Made by a program: the position numbers and the translations under genes
IMG/VR virus record: IMGVR_UViG_3300023284_000185
Span: 1-31,414 of that record
Direction: 5' to 3' (one strand)
DNA length: 31,414 bases
DNA from: a virus
The notes under the pieces: generated by a model
The model's database searches: none
Told to the model about the DNA's origin: nothing
The model's input: only the letters and a program-made list of their open reading frames with translations
Shown: positions 1-26,878 of the stretch, piece by piece
How the letters are laid out: each line of letters opens with the position of its first letter
How positions within the stretch are numbered: the first letter of the stretch is position 1

Positions 1-227
1 GTACACGGATAATCTGAAGGTTTAAATCCCCGGTATTCTCTTAAACTATTCTCGTCTTGTTCCCAGCCGTCACCGGTCTTTATCGGGACCAAGGGATTAT
101 CTAAATCAAAATCCCGTCCGAAATAGGCCGCATTTAACGCTGACTTTTCAGTCTCAAAAAGTCCTTGTAAGTTATCAATACCTTGACGCACGTCCCAGTG
201 TTCGACTTTTCCAGCTTCTCTGGGCAT
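1..227 (-). CDS. Unknown late protein, N-terminal part (gene leaves the window)
   Basis: The first 75 codons of a leftward gene are present; the rest lies beyond the left edge. It begins MPREAGKVEHWDVRQG and is acidic, with several aromatic residues (YFGRDFD, GDGWEQDE). I do not recognise it. Its ATG overlaps the stop of the beta-helix gene by one base (TAATG), so the two are translationally coupled and belong to the same late transcript. Being just behind the putative Q-dependent promoter, it could be part of a lysis or host-lysis-timing module, but nothing in the visible residues shows this. Confidence 0.75.
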   Translation of the reverse strand, partial: MPREAGKVEHWDVRQGIDNLQGLFETEKSALNAAYFGRDFDLDNPLVPIKTGDGWEQDENSLREYRGFKPSDYPC

Positions 228-1627
228 TAGCAGATAGTGTTTCCACCCTCGTCTATAATAGTTTGTTGTGTTCCATCCTCATTGTCTTGAGGCTGGCGCA
301 TGGTGTCTATAGGGATTCCTTGAGTACAATTATTCTTTAACCACATTGTGTGCGTACCGATATAATTCCAAGGTACGTCAATATGATTATCTTCAAAACG
401 AATCTTCAAGGTGGCCGTATCAGTCAATGTTGTTTCTTTATACCGATCACCCTGATTCAAATAAATATTCCCGCCGTCCTTGAACGTGTTCCGGGTTACG
501 AGTACGTTATAGACCCACGTCCAGTCCAAATTACCGGCATCTGAACCCGATATACGAAATGTTGAGGCCCCGCTACAGTTGTCAAAGTAGTTTCCATCAA
601 GGGTAACTCCATCCAAACTTTCCCCGGCATAATGTCCATAAAACTGTAAGCATCTTCCGCCAATGTGTCCCTCGAAACGGTTGTAACTGATTTCCACGTC
701 ATCATTTAACCCTCTTCCCCCGTGGTATACATCGTGGGAATTATTATCATTCAGTCCTGTGTTGCGGGTTACGTTACCTAAATACCGGAACCCTGCCGGT
801 GTTCGTTGTATCTGCCCACATGCGCCACTGTTTCCCGTTCGGGCGTTCTCACACAAATTGCCAACTACACGAAAGTTTGTTTTCTCTTCGTTCGATATAG
901 AGAAAGCACCCCGTTCGTTATCACAATCGGCGTGGAATTTTGCAAAGGTAAAGTCTTTCCATCCTTGAGAATGACCAGACGTATTTACCGCTGGAATTTC
1001 CGAACAATCCATACGCGGAACTTCACTAGGATAAGCCGTAATTTGAACTCCATCTTTTGGGCGTATGAGGGTGGGTCTTTGCGGGTAGGTATCTTTATCA
1101 TAATCTCCACCCCTCAAATAAACGACATCGCCATCATTAACATCTGACAGATCAATAGGCTCGCTATCATCCATCTCATGTGTCGTTCCATTAGTGACTG
1201 TATACGGCAGACAATCAGTACCAAGACATATAGGCCCGTCCGTACCGTTAACAATTACATACTGCCTCTGGCCCATGGTTTCAAAGGAAGGATGCAAAGG
1301 GTCGTCGCGCAATGTGGTGTGGAATTGGCAAAGCTGACCACCACACTGTAGGGAATTCGCATCTGTGACCCCTTGCATCCAGACCGTGATCCAGGCATTG
1401 GACGGACCACGGTTTATATCGGTGTAAAGTAACTCTCCATCCCCCTGTGAAGGGGGAGGCGGCTGTGAAGTGTTGTTTTCAAGGGCGTCAACCCTCGCGT
1501 CTAGTGCAATTACAGCCGCCTCTAAATCGGATATCTGTTGTTCGTTATCGGGATGTGGTCCGTGAGTCCATTCTATGTCTTGTCCATAAACAGGAAAACA
1601 CAGAAGAAACCCCAACAAGAAACGCAT
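227..1627 (-). CDS. Secreted, cysteine-rich right-handed beta-helix protein
   Basis: 466 aa. The N-terminus is a clear signal peptide (MRFLLGFLLCFPVYG, probable cleavage near residue 15; no lipobox). A short heptad stretch follows at about residues 29-51 (ISDLEAAVIALDARVDALE), likely an oligomerising coiled coil, then a proline linker (PPPPS) and a long region with the irregular N/D/G-rich repeats of parallel beta-helices (for example VEISYNRFEG, VTLDGNYFDNC, VLVTRNTFKDG). More than ten cysteines, many in close pairs, fit disulfides formed after export. It lacks the virion anchor domain seen on the two tail proteins at 15727-18749. Start: ATG with GAGG nine bases upstream, 13 bp behind a terminator. 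Likely role (inference): a polysaccharide-binding or -cleaving protein released to the periplasm or outside during late infection. The catalytic activity is unknown. Confidence 0.85.
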   Translation of the reverse strand: MRFLLGFLLCFPVYGQDIEWTHGPHPDNEQQISDLEAAVIALDARVDALENNTSQPPPPSQGDGELLYTDINRGPSNAWITVWMQGVTDANSLQCGGQLCQFHTTLRDDPLHPSFETMGQRQYVIVNGTDGPICLGTDCLPYTVTNGTTHEMDDSEPIDLSDVNDGDVVYLRGGDYDKDTYPQRPTLIRPKDGVQITAYPSEVPRMDCSEIPAVNTSGHSQGWKDFTFAKFHADCDNERGAFSISNEEKTNFRVVGNLCENARTGNSGACGQIQRTPAGFRYLGNVTRNTGLNDNNSHDVYHGGRGLNDDVEISYNRFEGHIGGRCLQFYGHYAGESLDGVTLDGNYFDNCSGASTFRISGSDAGNLDWTWVYNVLVTRNTFKDGGNIYLNQGDRYKETTLTDTATLKIRFEDNHIDVPWNYIGTHTMWLKNNCTQGIPIDTMRQPQDNEDGTQQTIIDEGGNTIC

Positions 1628-1640
1628 AAAGTGACCTCAT

Positions 1641-1664
1641 AAAAAAGGCCCCGGTGAAGGGGCC
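1641..1664 (-). terminator. Intrinsic terminator in the late leader (tR'-like)
   Basis: On the minus strand GGCCCC-TTCACC-GGGGCC is followed by six T. The perfect 6-bp GC stem plus U-tract is a textbook Rho-independent terminator. It lies 13 bp upstream of the beta-helix start codon and downstream of the Q-like gene, the position of lambda tR', which Q-modified polymerase reads through. Confidence 0.85.
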
Positions 1665-2100
1665 TAAGCCATAGGAGAATACACGCTTATTCCCGCGTGT
1701 GGGGATTTTGTTAGATTGCTGTGCATGGGTTTTGGCTGTAGTCCACCGTCCCCACACATTAGGCTTCCACCGAAACCTTGGTCTTTCACCTTTACACACA
1801 GCGGGCCACAGACGCGCCTCTCTTCGGCTTAAATCACACTGAGTGATAAACTCACCCTGCTTTTGGTTCAAACGGCTCTAGAAGCCTCCCACGGCTTACA
1901 AGGTTACTACATTTCACACGGCCCCGAAGGGCGCACAGCAAATCAAGTCAGGGGTGGTCTACAGGGAGAAACGACTGACCACCCCCTTCTAGGGACTCAT
2001 TTAAAGCGGGCCACGAGGGATGTTCTCGCAAAAGACAACCCCCGCAACCCCTGTGATCTTCGCAGATTCAAATATTTCTTAGTCAGAAACCATATATAAG
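1665..2100 (-). ncRNA. Structured leader / non-coding RNA between Q and the late terminator
   Basis: About 435 nt without a convincing gene on either strand, ending in the terminator at 1641-1664. On the minus strand it holds many strong helices: a 9-bp stem 1977-1985 with 1951-1959; a UUCG-capped hairpin 1921-1932; AAGCC/GGCTT 1882-1897; ATCAC/GTGAT 1833-1847; a 9-bp stem 1749-1757 with 1697-1705; and ACACGC/GCGTGT 1681-1700, which competes with the previous stem for 1697-1700. Lambda makes a terminated ~194-nt leader RNA at the same position. This one is about twice as long and more structured. I could not match it to tRNA, tmRNA, RNase P or 6S RNA by eye. The 5' end is estimated. Confidence 0.55.
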
Positions 2101-2103
2101 CGG

Positions 2104-2132
2104 AGTAGGCCATATCATGTGCCTAGTGTCAA
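2104..2132 (-). promoter_or_regulatory. Candidate late promoter (pR'-like) at the 3' end of Q
   Basis: A perfect -35 box TTGACA (2127-2132) overlaps the stop codon of the Q-like gene. Seventeen bases downstream is CCTACT (2104-2109), a weak -10. A TATATA lies a few bases further on (about 2093-2098) without a spaced -35. A weak -10 is plausible for a Q-dependent promoter. Assignment rests on the -35 and on position. Confidence 0.4.
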
Positions 2133-2539
2133 GCGTTCCGCAACTGCCCCTCTTTAGCAAACATATTATGTGCTACCAAACACTTACCCTCCCTCAAAGC
2201 CTGCCTAAATGTTTCCCTGGAAACCTCTAACAACGCAGCTTTATCCTGATTCGTGTACGTAGTCCCATCTTCCTTGTGGATTAGTGCGTATTTCACCGTC
2301 AGGACGCGCTTATAAGGCGTTCGCAGCGGAGTAATGGCAAAGTGTACCCTCCACACTTCGGGCGGCATATCGCCACACAGGGGCCGTGAGTCGGTGGCCT
2401 CCATGTCTACATGTCCAATGTTTAGGATCTTCCACAAAAGAGACGTTGAAGAAAATCCCGTATCTTCATGAGTAGCCAGCCATTCGCCCCACCGGCATAA
2501 GGGTTGGTCAATCCAGTCATAGGGGCCTTTACGTTTCAT
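2129..2539 (-). CDS. Q-like late antitermination protein
   Basis: 136 aa. The N-terminal part has the aromatic pattern of lambdoid Q proteins (YDWIDQPLCRWGEWLA followed by GFSSTSLLW). The C-terminal third, about residues 96-122 (TNQDKAALLEVSRETFRQAL), looks like a helix-turn-helix. Q proteins bind DNA at the late promoter and convert RNA polymerase to a terminator-resistant form. Supporting context: it is the last gene of the leftward early operon and is followed at once by a -35 box, a long untranslated leader and an intrinsic terminator, the lambda Q-pR'-tR' arrangement. Its start overlaps the previous gene by 11 bp. An alternative is another DNA-binding regulator of late genes; the family call is from memory of the pattern, not a search. 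Confidence 0.7.
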   Translation of the reverse strand: MKRKGPYDWIDQPLCRWGEWLATHEDTGFSSTSLLWKILNIGHVDMEATDSRPLCGDMPPEVWRVHFAITPLRTPYKRVLTVKYALIHKEDGTTYTNQDKAALLEVSRETFRQALREGKCLVAHNMFAKEGQLRNA

Positions 2540-2714
2540 CTACCGTTTGCAAAACAAATCTTGCGATATTTCTCGACTTCCATGCATTTCTCACCTTTGC
2601 TTTTACATTCCACCATGGCGGTATTTTAAGAGAAACGATTTCTTTCAACGCTGTCCTATACAGACTCTTTGCCTGTGTATCCATGTAGGCATCACTAAGG
2701 AAAGATTTATTCAT
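2529..2714 (-). CDS. Small basic phage protein, unknown
   Basis: 61 aa, lysine/arginine rich in its second half (VKAKVRNAWKSRNIARF). The ATG overlaps the stop of the upstream gene (ATGA), supporting translation. It sits directly before the Q-like gene. No domain recognised; a small nucleic-acid-binding protein is possible from its charge only. Confidence 0.7.
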   Translation of the reverse strand: MNKSFLSDAYMDTQAKSLYRTALKEIVSLKIPPWWNVKAKVRNAWKSRNIARFVLQTVDET

Positions 2715-3040
2715 ACATGCCCCCTGCGGCTACTCGCCTCTAATGTGCGCCATACTTCAATCTTGAGTTCAGCCGCCTTCATTTGTGCTTGCAACATGTT
2801 TGCCAAGAATACGGCTTCTCGATACTTTTCAAGAATATCTTTATAACCTTGTGCCCGGTATCCATCCCTGTTTTGTTCCCCGATTGTATTAGCCTTACTC
2901 TCGGCAGCTTCCTGTGCGTGTATGGCTTTTCGCATGTGATCCAAGAACTTCACGTCAGCCCATGCGTTAGCATACGCCTCTGCATTATCTCTCAAAAAAT
3001 CTAAGGCATGTTCGACGTGTTGTTCAGTGACGGTTTTCAC
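2711..3040 (-). CDS. Conserved phage protein of the EEVEYALxxL type, unknown function
   Basis: 109 aa, almost entirely helical and rich in A, E and K. The pattern EQHVEHALDFLRDNAEAYANA near the start and KIEVWRTLEASSRR near the end is one I associate with a widespread small phage protein of early regions, often near recombination or nuclease genes; its function is unknown to me. The start is GTG with no clear Shine-Dalgarno, 9 bp after the previous stop, so coupling or a weak start is likely. Coiled-coil tendency at about residues 70-100. Confidence 0.75.
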   Translation of the reverse strand: MKTVTEQHVEHALDFLRDNAEAYANAWADVKFLDHMRKAIHAQEAAESKANTIGEQNRDGYRAQGYKDILEKYREAVFLANMLQAQMKAAELKIEVWRTLEASSRRGHV

Positions 3041-3048
3041 TTAGATTT

Positions 3049-3225
3049 CTATGTAATCCCATATCCATTTTCTTGAATATCAGTAATAAAATTCTCAATC
3101 ACAGGTTCAAGCCGTTCTAAAGCAGGATTCATATCCCAATATGTATGTAAAATAGACCGCAATTCTCCCTTAGCCCGTTCCCATGCCATTTGCCTAAGAT
3201 TCTCTATTTCTCTGCTTTCGGGCAT
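3049..3225 (-). CDS. Small unknown protein (58 aa)
   Basis: An open frame starting ATG CCC GAA AGC with a strong Shine-Dalgarno, GGAGG nine bases upstream. The protein begins MPESREIENLRQMAWERAKG and ends NGYGIT. Mixed charge, helical, no recognised domain. It overlaps the upstream gene by 32 bp and fills what would otherwise be a gap. Ribosome-binding site and operon position make it likely to be real. Confidence 0.7.
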   Translation of the reverse strand: MPESREIENLRQMAWERAKGELRSILHTYWDMNPALERLEPVIENFITDIQENGYGIT

Positions 3226-4282: not shown

Positions 4283-4589
4283 GTAGTCCGATTTCATCGA
4301 CTGTTAACCCTTTGCGTAAACCGTTTACTATTTGAACAACTTCCTCTGTGTACTCAACGATCCAGCGCGGACCGCCTTGAGTTGATTGAAATAGGCATTC
4401 CTCAATGTCTGTGACCTTCCACCGCTGGCTTGGGTCTTTAACTTCAAGTACGAAAAATTGACCAGCAGCGAAACAAAGCAAATCAGCAGGTGTGTCCAAG
4501 TCCCAGTGATAAACCCGCATACTTTCCAAAACTTTCTTAATCTTTGGTTCATTGGCGTCTCGCCTTACTGCATGGCGTTTAAGGCTCAA
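4242..4589 (-). CDS. VRR-NUC-type PD-(D/E)XK nuclease
   Basis: 115 aa from the chosen TTG. The N-terminus RRDANEPKIKKVLES matches the start of stand-alone phage VRR-NUC proteins. Catalytic residues are visible: D36 in TPADLL and the E-x-K pair in FFVLEVKD (E49, K51). This fold cuts DNA, typically branched or flapped structures. TTG 4589 has AAAGGA nine bases upstream and gives the usual family length; a GTG at 4652 in frame would add 21 residues inside the preceding gene. The 3' end overlaps the membrane miniprotein. Likely involved in processing of replication or recombination intermediates (family inference). Confidence 0.75.
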   Translation of the reverse strand: MSLKRHAVRRDANEPKIKKVLESMRVYHWDLDTPADLLCFAAGQFFVLEVKDPSQRWKVTDIEECLFQSTQGGPRWIVEYTEEVVQIVNGLRKGLTVDEIGLHDKETTKAGYRKA

Positions 4590-4794
4590 GGTCAAGATTC
4601 CTTTGTTTAGTCCGGTAGGTATACGGTGCTGTCGGAAAACCAAGCCCGTCACGATCCACTAGCCCACCCCAGTACAAAGAGGCCATACACGAATAGATAT
4701 AATCTTTTTCAATATTCATTTCCGCTGCAATCTGTCTCACCGTATACCAATGACGTTCTTCCATTCTGTGTAGTATGTTGTCTTTTAAGGCCAT
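4579..4794 (-). CDS. Small winged-helix DNA-binding protein
   Basis: 71 aa. After MALKDNILHRMEER comes a helix-turn-helix pattern (YTVRQIAAEMNIEKDYIYSC) and a short turn/wing (GGLVDRDGLG), as in small winged-helix regulators. Start ATG 4794 has AGGA eight bases upstream; a longer in-frame start exists but lacks a ribosome site. It overlaps its neighbours by about 10 bp on each side, next to two nucleases. The target is unknown. Confidence 0.7.
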   Translation of the reverse strand: MALKDNILHRMEERHWYTVRQIAAEMNIEKDYIYSCMASLYWGGLVDRDGLGFPTAPYTYRTKQRNLDLEP

Positions 4795-4967
4795 GACGGT
4801 TTTCCTGCGTGTTCCCAACAATACCATTCGATCAGTCTTCTGCCTTTACGCTTGATCTGTTTTGAATATCGCTTCAACTCAGGCCAGTGTTCAGGCCCCC
4901 ACATTTGATCTTTCCAGCATGGATACTCATTCCATTTACAACCCTTTTTATCGCAGAACCTACGCAT
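4785..4967 (-). CDS. Small cysteine- and tryptophan-rich protein
   Basis: 60 aa beginning MRRFCDKKGCKWNEYPCW, with six Trp and a later CWEH. Cys5, Cys10, Cys17 and the Cys/His near residue 50 could bind zinc. Very basic in the middle (KQIKRKGRRL). ATG overlaps the upstream gene by 8 bp. Unknown function. Confidence 0.65.
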   Translation of the reverse strand: MRRFCDKKGCKWNEYPCWKDQMWGPEHWPELKRYSKQIKRKGRRLIEWYCWEHAGKPSWP

Positions 4968-15726: not shown

Positions 15727-17856
15727 CTAGCCAACAATCCCACGTGCTCTAAGATCAACGATTATTGTTCCAACAACATCGGCTAATTCAGCAATAACTA
15801 TGGAATTAGCGTCAAATGCGCGATCCGGGGTTACATTCGTTTCCGTGTAGGTTTGTTTTGTTGCCGCTGGTACTCCGCCAATTTCAACCCATGTTTTTGT
15901 CTCGTCCTTACGTAAGTGTAATATATCATCGGTAGACAAAGTAGCATTGACCGCACCCCGCAAATCAATTTGGCTGCCGGATGTGCCGTGCGTTATGGTG
16001 GTATTGTTATCTCCGGCACGAATGATAATTTCATCACCAATTTGACCGCCGTCTAATTGAGTAATGGTTGTCGCACCGGTATTTGCGGTAGTCCAATGTT
16101 TATTACCACTGACATCCGGCGTGGTATCGGCATCGGTGAATGCTTGTAATCGATCATGAAAAACACTTCCAGATCCTGTATATCGAACCAAACTAAGGGC
16201 AGTTGATCCTTGTCGTAACTGAATATTGGAATAACGAAGAAACGCACCTGTATTGACTCGAATTTCTGCGGTATCTCCGCCATCACCCATGTTGCAGTCA
16301 ATCATGGTCATTTCGCGCACGTCGGTATCAATTTCGATCAATACGTCGTAATCATTCTCAAAAACACAGCCTACAAACGACGGGCCTTGAATACGCTTTA
16401 TTGTAACTCCAGCTTCCGGTGTCGAGCGCATTGCACATACCACGGTAGAATTTGTCGCGCCTTGCAATAAGTCAAAATAACTCGCGTACCATTTCGGCCC
16501 ATAACTCGTGCCTTCGTACACTATTGCTGCTGACTTGTACCGTTTTAGATTGTGTCCCGTGCCCGAACCTGCATTTGTAATATTAACGATTGTGGCTAAC
16601 GCCCTATCTGAATAAAGTTCTACAGTATTAGCATCAATAACTTTGACAAAACGTGAATCATCATCAGTCAATCCGGTTATCGCTGAAGTTCCTTCGGTAT
16701 ACACAACTGGATCGTTATTTGTAAACCCGTGTGTTGTAATTGTGATTCGGTCTGTACTGATATTAATATCGGTATTGTCAAAGTTTTTAGATATTTCACC
16801 AAAAGGTTCTGGGTCAAACCGAACATTGCAATTAACAAATGTATCGCCATACATAGATTGCTGATTTGTGGCAATAGTGGTGTTTGAACTGATAACTTTT
16901 TGCATCGCATTATTTGTGGTGATGTAAACGGATGCATCAGCACCGGTTTTCGGATTACGAAATTCACAGTTTGTCCATTTATTCAACTCAGATCCGTAAT
17001 TATAATAAGCAGCTAGATCGTATCCGCCAATAAGCCGCACATTAACAAATTGATGGTCTCCTGCTGAAGGATTTGGTGAAGCCGTACCTGAACGCGCACA
17101 AAAAATACCAATGAGTGGTGTATTTGTCGGATGACCAAAAACCGTTAAATTAGTCACCCGCATGTTATAACCACCGGCCATATCTACGGCGATCAATCCC
17201 GTAGCTTGACACCAAATTGTGAATCCGGGCTCAAAAAAGAGATTTTTTACTTGGTCGTTATAATCTTCTCCTGTATCGTCATCAGCACCAAAAAATAAAG
17301 TACCGGTTGTTTTGTATTTTCCTGCCGGTCCAATAACAAAGGATTGCCCGTGTTCGTGGTTTGCATTAGTCGTTAAACCGGTAAAACTGGTAAAGTTAGG
17401 GGCCGCACGATACACCGCAAGCGCATTATTAATAGCCGTTGTTGAGTCCAATACACCTAAAGGATCGCCACCATAACGGCGTATATCGTTAGACGTAAAT
17501 TCATAGTTAGTCGGTGTTACTGAAGCATCTTGTTCTGCCTGAGTCCTTGGATTAAGAGTCAAGCCAATATTTGCTTGAGTCAACGCATCCTGAATGGGAT
17601 CTTCATCGTAAATTAGCGCATCATTCGTATCGTCTAAAATCAACCTGTATACGATATCGGGATCAAGATAAATAGTTGCAAATACACCGCTAGAATCCGC
17701 CACAACCGGATTGGCGTGTGGCGTTGCCAATGCCGCATCCGTATAGGTGTTTGTATTTGTAGTGGTTCCGGTTAAGTGAAAGTTGGCCTTAGCGCCGCCA
17801 CTCACCACACCACCTACAATGGGGACTTGTTTAGGAAGTTGGAATATTCTAGACAT
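15727..17856 (-). CDS. Tailspike: P22-type head-binding domain plus beta-helix
   Basis: 709 aa (P22 tailspike is 667). Residues 1-90 form the virion anchor: GAKANFHLTGTTT, TYTDAALATPHANPVVADS and FATIYLDPD, as in many podovirus spikes. A short linker leads to DIRRYGGDPLGVLDSTTAIN (about 120-140), the entry motif of pectate-lyase-type beta-helix depolymerases, followed by about 450 residues of beta-helix-like sequence and a C-terminal beta domain (from about 590) of the kind that trimerises such spikes. Role: bind and probably cleave a surface polysaccharide of the host. Catalytic residues cannot be named from sequence alone. Start ATG overlaps the fibre stop by one base (TGATG). Confidence 0.85.
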   Translation of the reverse strand: MSRIFQLPKQVPIVGGVVSGGAKANFHLTGTTTNTNTYTDAALATPHANPVVADSSGVFATIYLDPDIVYRLILDDTNDALIYDEDPIQDALTQANIGLTLNPRTQAEQDASVTPTNYEFTSNDIRRYGGDPLGVLDSTTAINNALAVYRAAPNFTSFTGLTTNANHEHGQSFVIGPAGKYKTTGTLFFGADDDTGEDYNDQVKNLFFEPGFTIWCQATGLIAVDMAGGYNMRVTNLTVFGHPTNTPLIGIFCARSGTASPNPSAGDHQFVNVRLIGGYDLAAYYNYGSELNKWTNCEFRNPKTGADASVYITTNNAMQKVISSNTTIATNQQSMYGDTFVNCNVRFDPEPFGEISKNFDNTDINISTDRITITTHGFTNNDPVVYTEGTSAITGLTDDDSRFVKVIDANTVELYSDRALATIVNITNAGSGTGHNLKRYKSAAIVYEGTSYGPKWYASYFDLLQGATNSTVVCAMRSTPEAGVTIKRIQGPSFVGCVFENDYDVLIEIDTDVREMTMIDCNMGDGGDTAEIRVNTGAFLRYSNIQLRQGSTALSLVRYTGSGSVFHDRLQAFTDADTTPDVSGNKHWTTANTGATTITQLDGGQIGDEIIIRAGDNNTTITHGTSGSQIDLRGAVNATLSTDDILHLRKDETKTWVEIGGVPAATKQTYTETNVTPDRAFDANSIVIAELADVVGTIIVDLRARGIVG

Positions 17857-18749
17857 CAGTCAAGTAAATACGTGAATATTTGACTACCCACAAATCCCTT
17901 CGTTCCAGAAGCAGTAAATGCTGACGTCGCGATAGTGGCCTGGAAAGATATTTGCCCAGCATTGGAAATAGAAATAACCCCGGCGGCTGTTGTGCCATTA
18001 TCAGTAACCCTATAAAGAGTATTTACTGTTGTTTCTGTCGGTCTTAATGCGGCTATAACGTCCGTTGCACCACTGGTTAATCCCGTTGTATTGCTAGTCG
18101 CGCTCAAAGTTCCATCCGGGTGTAAAACAACCACATTACCTACTCGGGTATAATTCCATGTGGTGGTTGGACTGGTTGTAAATCCTGCCCAAGTAGCAGT
18201 AAATGCCCCCTTAGAAACTCCTAATGGAAGCCCGTTGTGGTTTAATGTGGTAGGTAATAAATCAACTGTATCGACGGTATTTGCCGTTCGATCAACCGTC
18301 AATACATTGGTAAAGGCGGCTAAAGCATCGTTTGCCACTTGCAAGGTTAGTTGTTCAGAATTGACGCCGAAGCGCCAAGACGTATTGTTTGCCGCTGCAT
18401 CCGATTCAATCAAATCAATAAAAGGGGCGGCGGCTTTCAAAGTAAGGCTTTGGCCGGACTGAGACGCGGGGATATCATCCTCAATCCATATAGACACATC
18501 ACTTGAGTCCACCAACTGAACCCGATAGTCCCCAAGGGCAGGGTCAAAATAGATGGGCGCAAACTCCCCGTCTGAATCCGCAATAACAGGGTTAGCATGT
18601 GGTGTTGCCAAGGCCACGTCCGTATAGGTGTTCTGATCGGTAGATGTGCCCGTCTGGGTAAAATGCAGCTTAGCGCCTGCCAATGCATGGCTGGAATTGC
18701 TGTAGTCCTGGGCTATCTGCCGGGGCATGTAGAAAAGATTACCGGCCAT
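17856..18749 (-). CDS. Second tail fibre sharing the tailspike anchor domain
   Basis: 297 aa. Residues 22-75 (AGAKLHFTQTGTSTDQNTYT, ALATPHANPVIADS, FAPIYFDP) are clearly homologous to the tailspike anchor. The remainder is short, beta-rich, and Thr/Asn-rich with no beta-helix entry motif; a domain such as TWAGFTTSPTTTWNYTRVGN recalls collar or fibre-tip modules. AGGA seven bases before the ATG. It probably binds the same virion site as the spike or an adjacent tail position, forming an adapter or alternative receptor-binding protein. The 92-bp gap before it (18750-18841) contains no supported gene. Confidence 0.8.
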   Translation of the reverse strand: MAGNLFYMPRQIAQDYSNSSHALAGAKLHFTQTGTSTDQNTYTDVALATPHANPVIADSDGEFAPIYFDPALGDYRVQLVDSSDVSIWIEDDIPASQSGQSLTLKAAAPFIDLIESDAAANNTSWRFGVNSEQLTLQVANDALAAFTNVLTVDRTANTVDTVDLLPTTLNHNGLPLGVSKGAFTATWAGFTTSPTTTWNYTRVGNVVVLHPDGTLSATSNTTGLTSGATDVIAALRPTETTVNTLYRVTDNGTTAAGVISISNAGQISFQATIATSAFTASGTKGFVGSQIFTYLLD

Positions 18750-18841: not shown

Positions 18842-20308
18842 TTACTCACCACGTCTCATTTGTTCTGAGGCTTTCTCGGCTCTCTTAATGGTTTTAGATT
18901 CCGCAATCTTACGGCTTAAAGCCCCAATCAAAGGCAAAGCAAATGCCCCTGCAGGGCCAGCAGCAGCAAACCCCAACCCACTACCGATACCAAAAGAAAC
19001 AACCCCGGTTGGGGCTAATTTACCCAAACCACGGAAAGCATTGTCTAGCGGTGTGCCACTAGCAACGCGTTTGATTGCCGCTTGTTCCGCCTTAGTAAAC
19101 ATTTTTATTTTCTTTCGATTCATAGCTAATGCACGAAATTCAGTTCTTAAAGCATTTTCAAAACCGCTACCGGTGAATTGACCTGCGCGAGTTCCGGCTC
19201 GTTCAATGAGTTCCTCAATGGTTTCAGTTTTACGCGCCCTTGACCACAAACTTCTAGCAGATTTTAGATACTGCACCGCCTCCGTACCGGTGGCCCCAGT
19301 AACGTCTTTTAACTTGATATTTTCAATGTAATCATCCCACCGTCTTAAAACACGTCCAGCCATGGCCGCATCTGCGGTATCCGTAGCGGCTTGCGCTTGC
19401 TTGATAATGCGTCGTGCTTCCTCGGCCTTTTTTAACGTCATTCCACCCTTTATAATGTCTTTTTGAATTTCTCGCAAAGCTGCATGTGTTTTTGGCGTAA
19501 GTGCTTGCCGCATTCCTTGACTCTCTGAAAATTGAACAATTTTATTGAAAGCAGTTGTAACGCTGGCATCAGAAAGTGTCATTCCAGAATTATCCACCAA
19601 ATCATAAAGCGCTGTAGATTCAGCCTTTAACTCTTCAATGGTCTTTGGTTTTACTTTTGCAGGGGCATTAAGCCCGCTTTTTAATTTACTTGCACCACCA
19701 AAACCGACTCCTGACAAAACAAGATCCGGGAATAAATGGGCCATTGTTGATACCAAAGGAGAAAAACCAAGATCCTCTGATAATTCGCCCAAATAATCCC
19801 CCATGGGCATTTCCATAAACTTTTCTCGTTCCTCAGATCCTTCAATCACAAAAGGAATAGCAGACAGTGGATATTTAATGGCGGTCGCAGCAGCCTCTAC
19901 AGTCTTACCGACGCCCTTTTCAACCAACTGCCCGCCCTTAGTTTCTGATGTAAAGAACTCTTGACCAGCCTCTTCAATACCTCTAACTCGTTCTGCCGGG
20001 GCATTAAAATCAGGAGGAAGATGCGGACCCTTAAGAACCTCATGTGCGCCTTGGGCAAGACCACCCAAACCAGCCACAATCTTAGTGCCGATTTTACCCG
20101 CAATATTGAATATGCCTTCTCCAATTTGCCCGCGTGGGTGTTGAAAGCGTTCCAGGCTATTCAGCGTTTGTTCTGACTTTGTCAGTAGTTGTTCGGACTG
20201 TTCTATTCCGGGTTGTTCTATGGGTTCAGCAACGCCCGCAACTGGATCGTTAGCCCAAGGCTGATCGTCAGTCCCTTCGATGGGGTCATTTTCCCAAGGT
20301 TCAGCCAT
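18842..20308 (-). CDS. Ejection (pilot) protein, P22 gp16-like by position
   Basis: 488 aa (P22 gp16 is 609). The front has a repeat-like acidic motif (PWENDPIEG, PWANDPVAG). Then glycine/alanine-rich helices (IAGKIGTKIVAGLGGLAQGA), a long charged helical middle (KKAEEARRIIKQAQAATDTA) and, near the C-terminus, a hydrophobic Gly/Ala stretch (VVSFGIGSGLGFAAAGPAGA) able to enter a membrane. This is typical of proteins stored in the head and injected to form the trans-envelope channel. No lysozyme motif. Its ATG is coupled to the previous gene (TAATG), and it is the last of three consecutive ejection-protein candidates. Confidence 0.7.
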   Translation of the reverse strand: MAEPWENDPIEGTDDQPWANDPVAGVAEPIEQPGIEQSEQLLTKSEQTLNSLERFQHPRGQIGEGIFNIAGKIGTKIVAGLGGLAQGAHEVLKGPHLPPDFNAPAERVRGIEEAGQEFFTSETKGGQLVEKGVGKTVEAAATAIKYPLSAIPFVIEGSEEREKFMEMPMGDYLGELSEDLGFSPLVSTMAHLFPDLVLSGVGFGGASKLKSGLNAPAKVKPKTIEELKAESTALYDLVDNSGMTLSDASVTTAFNKIVQFSESQGMRQALTPKTHAALREIQKDIIKGGMTLKKAEEARRIIKQAQAATDTADAAMAGRVLRRWDDYIENIKLKDVTGATGTEAVQYLKSARSLWSRARKTETIEELIERAGTRAGQFTGSGFENALRTEFRALAMNRKKIKMFTKAEQAAIKRVASGTPLDNAFRGLGKLAPTGVVSFGIGSGLGFAAAGPAGAFALPLIGALSRKIAESKTIKRAEKASEQMRRGE

Positions 20309-24763: not shown

Positions 24764-25077
24764 CCCGGATTTACCTTACGCCACAGAACCGTGATTTGTC
24801 CTGATGCTGCCGCATCAGCCGGGTTAATAATCAATGCATCTGGAAAACGCAGACCGTGAAAATCAAGATTGGTATTAGCCGCCAAAGATGCTGCAAGTGT
24901 TAATACAGTCGTTCCAGCCACATTCTCGATTTCACAGGCATTGGCTGACAATACAATATTGACATGAATCCCCATAAGCAGAGTCGGACCCGTGTTTACG
25001 GTCGTCGTATTGTCCGTCATATTGACGATAGTATGTTCACACTCATCATGGACAAGGAGTCCATCCCGTGTAGCCAT
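24760..25077 (-). CDS. Small virion protein candidate (105 aa)
   Basis: Begins MATRDGLLVHDECEHTIVNM; beta- and Thr/Asn/Ala-rich with TVLTLAASLAANTNLDFHGL and VLWRKVNPG at the end. Such Ala/Thr-rich small proteins between coat and gp4 are commonly head-decoration or head-tail proteins. It is preceded by a terminator-like hairpin (25089-25110), so its level may be lower than that of the coat-proximal gene. No homologue recognised. Confidence 0.65.
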   Translation of the reverse strand: MATRDGLLVHDECEHTIVNMTDNTTTVNTGPTLLMGIHVNIVLSANACEIENVAGTTVLTLAASLAANTNLDFHGLRFPDALIINPADAAASGQITVLWRKVNPG

Positions 25078-25088
25078 AGTCTTACCTC

Positions 25089-25110
25089 AAAAGGGGTTCC
25101 GAAGAACCCC
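25089..25110 (-). terminator. Intrinsic terminator-like hairpin after the coat cluster
   Basis: On the minus strand GGGGTTC-TTCG-GAACCCC is followed by TTTTGAGG: a perfect 7-bp stem with a UUCG loop but a U-run of only four, so probably partial. On the plus strand a T-run lies seven bases beyond the stem. It could reduce downstream expression after the coat gene or stabilise the 3' end of a processed coat mRNA. Confidence 0.6.
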
Positions 25111-25121
25111 CCTTAGTTTTT

Positions 25122-25610
25122 TTAGAACGGAGTTGTTCCTGTGCCAACACCCATCATGGTTCCACTAATAGACCAAATGGTCGTACTCAAAGCAACCATG
25201 CGGAAATGAGTACCATTCAAGCGACCTGTCACGTCACTGTCGGCGGTAAACGCCACGGACGCGGTACGGTCGGCGGCAAAGGTATCGCCACCTTCTGCAA
25301 CCGCTGTGGACGAGTAATCAACCCCGCCACCGATGAAAGTGGTAGCAGCATCAGTCGCCACGGAATATGTTCCCGTACCCGTGATGGTAGCAACAAAGTC
25401 GAAATACATGCCCACATCGCGGGCATTAATGGCCGGCAATGTAAAAGCCTGCCCCGCAGCCGTAGCGAATACACACAAAGCCCCCGATTCAGAACGGAGT
25501 AATGTTCGTGCGGTCCCTGTGGGATCAATCACCTGTAAGGCGGCACCAAACAGTGCAGAACCGTCCAGAGAGCCGTAATCAATGCGTTCTCTAGTTACTG
25601 GAATTGCCAT
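25122..25610 (-). CDS. Putative head protein next to the coat gene (162 aa)
   Basis: Begins MAIPVTRERIDYGSLDGSA; beta-rich and Ala/Thr/Gly-rich (AAGQAFTLPAINARDVGMYF, FVATITGTGTYSVATDAAT). AAGGAGG eight bases upstream is one of the strongest ribosome sites here and predicts high expression, as for an abundant virion component. The position right after the coat gene and before a terminator suits a decoration or capsid-stabilising protein. No family named. Confidence 0.65.
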   Translation of the reverse strand: MAIPVTRERIDYGSLDGSALFGAALQVIDPTGTARTLLRSESGALCVFATAAGQAFTLPAINARDVGMYFDFVATITGTGTYSVATDAATTFIGGGVDYSSTAVAEGGDTFAADRTASVAFTADSDVTGRLNGTHFRMVALSTTIWSISGTMMGVGTGTTPF

Positions 25611-25624
25611 AAGTCAACCCTCCT

Positions 25625-26878
25625 TTAGTTAGAAATCCTGCAAGCCCATTCAGGTCGCAGCGCTTTAAAGCCGTACAAAATATCCAGTCTCAGCAAGAGT
25701 TCATCATTCCTGATATCACTACCCTGCCAGCACCGAATCGACAAGCCATCCTGAACTCTGCGTACACAGCGTATTGCATCATCCATAATCGGCAAGTCAG
25801 CCGTTACAAACGTGAACGCCTCCTTGTGATACATGAGGTTTTGCTGTAATACCGCACTTGCAGCGCCATGTTGAACCGTGGCGTTATTCTCCAAGGTGGC
25901 AAAAGTACCGTCTGCGGTAGAGATATTTTGCTTAGCACCGTTCACAACAAGCGCGGGCGCAAAGGTAATCTCAGCTTGGTTGGAAGCTATCGAACCTACT
26001 GCCGTGATAACCAACTGCTTCAAATGGCTGTATGCAGTCTTGGTTTCCGGGTGTACGTCGAACATTGCAGCAATGGTAAACACCGTTCCAACCGTAGGAA
26101 CCACTGTGCCCATTGCATCGAAGTTCAACAAACTAACCGAATTACCAACCGCAGCGTCGCCAGTGGCTAAACGAGTCGTGTCATCAACCGTCCACGCTAC
26201 ATCGGCATCAGAACCCAGCGTATGAGAAAAGGTTTTCTCATTCTCGTAAAAGGTCGCCATGGCATTCCTGCCTATGTAACCTTCACGGAAAGCCATTTTT
26301 ATCTGGTTGCCGTCATGGAATAAGGCTTGTGTGCCATTAACAATCGACCCCATAGTGACCGAATCGAACTGCACACAGCGGCTATTGTCCTTCGGTGCTA
26401 GTTGCTGATTGAGTTTTGCCCGGGCATCAGTGATGGCCGAGATATCGGCAGAAGCACCCACAACAGTCCCGGCGGTGCCGGTCAGTTGGTAAACGGATTG
26501 CGTGACGGAATCCATCACATCGCCTTCAATGCCCGATACCAAAACAGAAGTAGCGGGTTCGATGTAGCGTCGTGAAAGTTCGTCGATTGAAAGTGAAAGT
26601 TCCGCAGAATTAAACTTCATGTCAACGCCGTCTTGTGTGGCAACAACAACGTTTTGTGTAGTTTCTGTCTGATCCTGTACATCCATGATGCGTGAACCTT
26701 TACGCCGGGTGTACTGGTTGGGGTCTCTGACTCTGAGAGTATCCCCTATCTTGCCGCCCGATTGGGCGTAAGACGGATCATAACTGCGGTCAATAGTACC
26801 GATAAAGTTGAGTTTCTCATGCGCAATGCGGAGAGCCTCTCTTGTAACCATATCGATGACGGAGAGAGTATTGGCCAT
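25625..26878 (-). CDS. Major capsid (coat) protein, P22 gp5-like
   Basis: 417 aa (P22 gp5 is 430). The start ANTLSVIDMVTREALRIAHE, DRSYDPSYAQSGGKIGDTLR and IRDPNQYTRRKG-like VRDPNQYTRRKGSRI, with the later VLVSGIEGDVMDSVTQSVYQ, are diagnostic of the P22 coat family (HK97 fold with an inserted I-domain). It assembles the T=7 procapsid around scaffold. Upstream AGGA at eight bases. Neighbours on both sides fit. Confidence 0.95.
   Translation of the reverse strand: MANTLSVIDMVTREALRIAHEKLNFIGTIDRSYDPSYAQSGGKIGDTLRVRDPNQYTRRKGSRIMDVQDQTETTQNVVVATQDGVDMKFNSAELSLSIDELSRRYIEPATSVLVSGIEGDVMDSVTQSVYQLTGTAGTVVGASADISAITDARAKLNQQLAPKDNSRCVQFDSVTMGSIVNGTQALFHDGNQIKMAFREGYIGRNAMATFYENEKTFSHTLGSDADVAWTVDDTTRLATGDAAVGNSVSLLNFDAMGTVVPTVGTVFTIAAMFDVHPETKTAYSHLKQLVITAVGSIASNQAEITFAPALVVNGAKQNISTADGTFATLENNATVQHGAASAVLQQNLMYHKEAFTFVTADLPIMDDAIRCVRRVQDGLSIRCWQGSDIRNDELLLRLDILYGFKALRPEWACRISN

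Follow-up and report, generated by a model that had tools for sequence, protein, structure and literature searches.

The closest described counterparts of the locus analysed here are the pR'-tR' regions of lambda, P22 and phage 21/Sf6, in which the late antiterminator gene Q is accompanied by a promoter-like -35 element at or after its stop codon and an intrinsic terminator, and is separated from the first late gene by 430-680 nt of non-coding DNA. The Q-to-holin interval is 676 nt long in lambda, 434 nt in P22 and 460 nt in Sf6, where it contains tRNAs and where the annotated late -35 element lies over the Q stop codon. The terminators of these phages are located near the promoter, and the annotated tR' leaders are short (about 58 nt in P22). 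Processing of this transcript in the Stx phages yields StxS, an sRNA from pR'-tR' that binds Hfq (PMC7873438), and GOLLD and ROOL are large RNAs of phages and prophages (PMC12286853).

The IMG/VR record IMGVR_UViG_3300023284_000185 was analysed over its whole length of 31,414 nt (31.4 kb, hereafter the window) and represents a fragment of a P22-like phage, as indicated by minus-strand matches to the portal (E 4.9e-156) and coat (E 3.4e-22) of P22. None of its genes was recognised as a terminase. The record had no end repeats, and the contig was therefore taken as open between positions 1 and 31414. On the minus strand the Q-like gene is followed by a stretch free of genes, the intrinsic terminator and a late gene (Table 1). 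An earlier note on this DNA had put the gene-free stretch at about 435 nt: the stretch itself was found, but its length is 501 nt (2128 to 1628). A gene hidden in it was rejected, since its open segments had no PHROG match and the tRNA scan of the interval was negative. The structural genes are on the same strand as the gene at 1627-227; because the contig is not closed, the linkage of this gene to them and the order across the open ends were judged from relatives (L013 and L079). Elsewhere in the window, a 488-aa gene at 18842-20308, situated among tail/ejection genes, matched PHROG_21712 "major head protein" (E 1.5e-39); since a P22-type coat gene is present at 25625-26878, this family is possibly misnamed. 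Two adjacent genes, 15727-17856 and 17856-18749, each matched phage MW202691 (L004) at one and the same pair of sites, ~35,800 and ~37,400, and therefore seem to share an N-terminal module.

Table 1. Features of the Q-to-late-gene region of the window (P, predicted pairing probability; z, fold z-score)
Feature	Position	Strand	Basis
Q-like late antiterminator gene	2129..2539	-	136 aa; PHROG_79, PF06530 below cut-off, AlphaFold model
Putative late promoter, TTGACA, 17 nt, TGG CCTACT	2104..2132	-	-35 6/6, -10 3/6
Non-coding interval, putative late leader and ribosome-binding site	1628..2128	-	no ORF of note; fold z -2.9
12-bp hairpin GGGTTGCGGGGG/CCCTCGTGGCCC	2008..2050	-	mean P 0.99
10-bp hairpin GGGGGTGGTC/GACCACCCCT	1950..1986	-	mean P 0.97
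Folded domain at the 3' side, a long imperfect stem enclosing hairpins	1667..1896	-	half-wise z, pair probabilities
Intrinsic terminator, candidate tR'	1640..1665	-	7-bp stem, 6 G-C pairs, and T6
First gene after the terminator	227..1627	-	466 aa, N-terminal signal-peptide-like stretch

In our reading, to which we give a probability of roughly 0.62, the interval serves a P22-like phage as the leader of a late operon under Q control. By analogy with the described Q systems (PMC6606751, PMC7171158), RNA polymerase would start where the Q-like gene ends, probably at about 2097, and transcribe a leader of roughly 450 nt ending at the terminator. The Q-like protein would then make the polymerase resistant to termination at 1665-1640, allowing the late genes from 1627 onward to be read, and without Q the terminated leader RNA would accumulate as a by-product. 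The late-leader interpretation already offered in the earlier note fits the gene order, the synteny in L079, L087 and L088 and the Sf6-like position of the -35 element over the Q stop codon.

The identity of the Q-like protein is central to this reading. Searched alone, it matched PHROG_79 with E 0.062 and the Pfam Q21 family PF06530 with E 0.22, below the cut-off. Homologues were found in four related loci (L079, L085, L087 and L088; 25-31% identity), and all five Q-like proteins, including that of the window, matched PHROG_79 (best E 0.0015), so that a Q-family gene directly upstream of the interval is present at the family level, albeit weakly supported. The PDB profile search gave four hits, all weak, one of them 21Q (6p18, 6jnx) at E 0.8. 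The AlphaFold model, built with 5 sequences (pLDDT 75.8), has a C-terminal helix-turn-helix resembling sigma region 4, and the best PDB hits of the fold search were sigma-factor chains rather than 21Q, none of them significant. Given the sub-threshold PF06530 score and these top hits, a transcription factor of a different kind is conceivable. The PHROG_79 matches of all five homologues and the agreeing synteny support the original gene call, and we call the protein Q-like with fair, though not full, confidence.

The TTGACA reported at the Q stop codon was confirmed at 2132-2127, where it covers the TGA stop of the Q-like gene. It is one of nine on that strand of the window, and simple arithmetic from nine per strand in 31 kb gives a chance of ~0.6% for such a hexamer at the stop with a 20-nt target. 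The candidate promoter is thus placed as in Sf6; its -10 element, CCTACT preceded by TG, is poor and differs in this respect from the lambdoid regions. The promoter score was the best in the region, yet sites of such score occur 1.24 times per kb of strand, and a consensus promoter scan of 1000-3200 found no promoter. We regard the promoter as the weak point of the mechanism. We discarded short inverted repeats close to candidate late promoters as possible Q sites, judging them common by chance.

The terminator (AGGCCCC-TTCACC-GGGGCCT-TTTTTT) lies between the candidate promoter and the first late gene and was the sole one of that quality on both strands of the 31.4 kb in a stricter scan. Its end is separated by 12 nt from the ATG at 1627, in agreement with the intrinsic terminator noticed previously just before the next start, for which a distance of 13 bp had been given. 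In contrast to the lambdoid pR'-tR' regions, it occupies the late-gene end of the interval, and the stretch preceding it is far longer than the annotated tR' leaders. The first late gene is also different, encoding a signal-peptide protein instead of the holin of lambda and P22.

The weak -10 element and the negative consensus scan favor a rather unlikely alternative, in which the interval is the 3' untranslated end of an early operon with no late promoter at all, and the terminator stops early transcription and shields the late gene, whose expression would depend on a promoter elsewhere or on a transcription factor of the phage. The sigma-region-4-like domain, with which the Q-like protein could be an activator, points in the same direction, whereas the perfect TTGACA is found where phage 21-type late promoters sit, the gene order matches that of Q-controlled phages, and the short gap between the terminator and the ATG leaves no room there for a promoter.

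The relatives of the Q-like gene showed a similar arrangement. In L079, L087 and L088 a terminator is located 16-35 nt past the Q stop and a signal-peptide gene ~130-155 nt past it, with ~40 nt around the terminator common to the three loci at 79-86% identity. L085 has one more gene after Q and then a terminator ~15 nt before the next start, and L038 has a terminator at the stop of its Q-like ORF and a second one ~15 nt before the next gene (4566-4816, ~220 nt apart). The succession of Q, terminator and late gene is therefore the rule, and a terminator abutting the late gene has precedents. The long folded interval is absent from all four Q relatives and from L038. A signal-peptide-like start of the first late gene was seen in the window (1627-227), L079 (3056), L087 (1182), L088 (4547) and L013 (1168). 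L013, with 64% portal identity, has a non-coding early/late junction of 562 nt (606-1167) from an early gene to the signal-peptide gene, unrelated in sequence to that of the window; it includes a terminator-like hairpin at ~615-677, palindromes (TTACG..CGTAA) that recur near 703-782 and then a TTGACA at ~818, resembling an operator cluster. In L005/L007, whose coat is the nearest to that of the window (85% identity), the junction is just 231 nt long and has no excess folding.

The tRNAs in Sf6 and the unrelated sequences and lengths in the relatives mark this interval as a hot spot of exchange, as would be expected if it were mosaic debris, the remnant of an insert such as a gene or tRNA that had decayed or been exchanged between the promoter and the terminator, its folding being incidental. 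We consider this highly improbable, given open segments that match no PHROG, the lack of a tRNA and a sense-strand folding bias that is modest but real.

The sense strand of the 488-nt interval folded with a z of -3.0, none of 100 shuffles being as good, compared to -0.95 for the antisense strand; removal of the terminator changed the value of the interval to -1.85, and tiling of the same strand gave a z at least as low in 7 of 83 stretches of 488 nt. The excess of structure is moderate. It is concentrated in the 3' half (z -3.44, against -1.44 for the 5' half), mostly within 1880-1640, where a long stem (1817-1795 with 1701-1681) is the dominant predicted helix. Several of the strong helices announced in the earlier note were recovered with a mean P of at least 0.93, namely 2050-2039/2019-2008, 1986-1977/1959-1950, 1857-1852/1846-1841, 1778-1772/1767-1761, 1805-1801/1696-1692 and the terminator. 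Two helices described as excluding each other do have complementary sequences, but neither is predicted to form (probabilities of 0.07 and about 0). A riboswitch-like terminator/antiterminator was rejected on the same values, the core pairs of the terminator having P = 1. Two stretches of the minus strand lying mostly inside coding sequence, 25077-25564 and 1269-1756, gave z values of -6.6 and -6.1, stronger than the leader.

For the corresponding intervals from Q to the holin gene, z was -6.3 in lambda, -5.3 in P22 and -4.5 in Sf6. Those of P22 and lambda were strong on the antisense strand as well, indicating that part of their excess is palindromic DNA. By these lengths and values, the interval of the window is ordinary in length and lesser in folding excess. 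The idea of a special large folded RNA is not supported: relative to their composition the lambda, P22 and Sf6 intervals fold more strongly, and the Q-bearing relatives have no such RNA.

The searches for related RNAs were negative. Rfam gave no matches at the gathering score, GOLLD, ROOL, 6S and other families included, and at a relaxed threshold the best below-threshold hits covered just the terminator end. The statement that the RNA matches no known class thus holds for Rfam; it does not mark the RNA as special, being expected of a fast-evolving leader. Blastn of the interval against phage and plasmid records found no match, no homologue of it was present in 80 portal-related IMG/VR loci, and in three 16-mer scans of IMG/VR the matches extended no further than chance length. 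A single-sequence covariance model of 1824-1640, run over 86 sources, recovered the window itself and L076 at 20.8 bits, the latter rejected as a homologue because its 68-nt match rests on the terminator hairpin. These three approaches, applied to 1.0 Mb of related loci, yielded no homologues for covariation, an absence of evidence that nonetheless shows the RNA not to be conserved among the relatives at hand. It shares with GOLLD and ROOL the nature of a large non-coding phage RNA, but differs from them by having no Rfam match, no tRNA island and no conserved structure that could be found.

A trans-acting role, in which the terminated leader would be stable and regulate host or phage RNAs or proteins, has its precedent in StxS (PMC7873438), and the better folding of the sense strand over the antisense strand agrees with it. 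Like StxS, the leader would arise by termination of transcripts from a late promoter before induction. StxS is, however, short, processed by RNase E and bound by Hfq. With no homologue and hence no conservation, a structure weaker than in the lambda, P22 and Sf6 intervals, and Q relatives that manage without such an RNA, we find this role distinctly unlikely, and very unlikely in its most far-reaching form, a structured RNA of ~450 nt, stable and acting in trans, that the late promoter would supply constitutively before Q acts and that would belong to no described class. None of these results points to a new kind of RNA, and we take the long leader to be a lineage-specific variant rather than a conserved RNA.

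Read as the leader of a Q-controlled operon, the locus would be an instance of the lambda-type late switch, with its Q-like gene, terminator and late operon, among environmental phages of a divergent P22-like clade, in which the interval between Q and the late genes is highly variable. Should the leader RNA be stable, it would add to the examples of antitermination by-products that phages have made into regulators.
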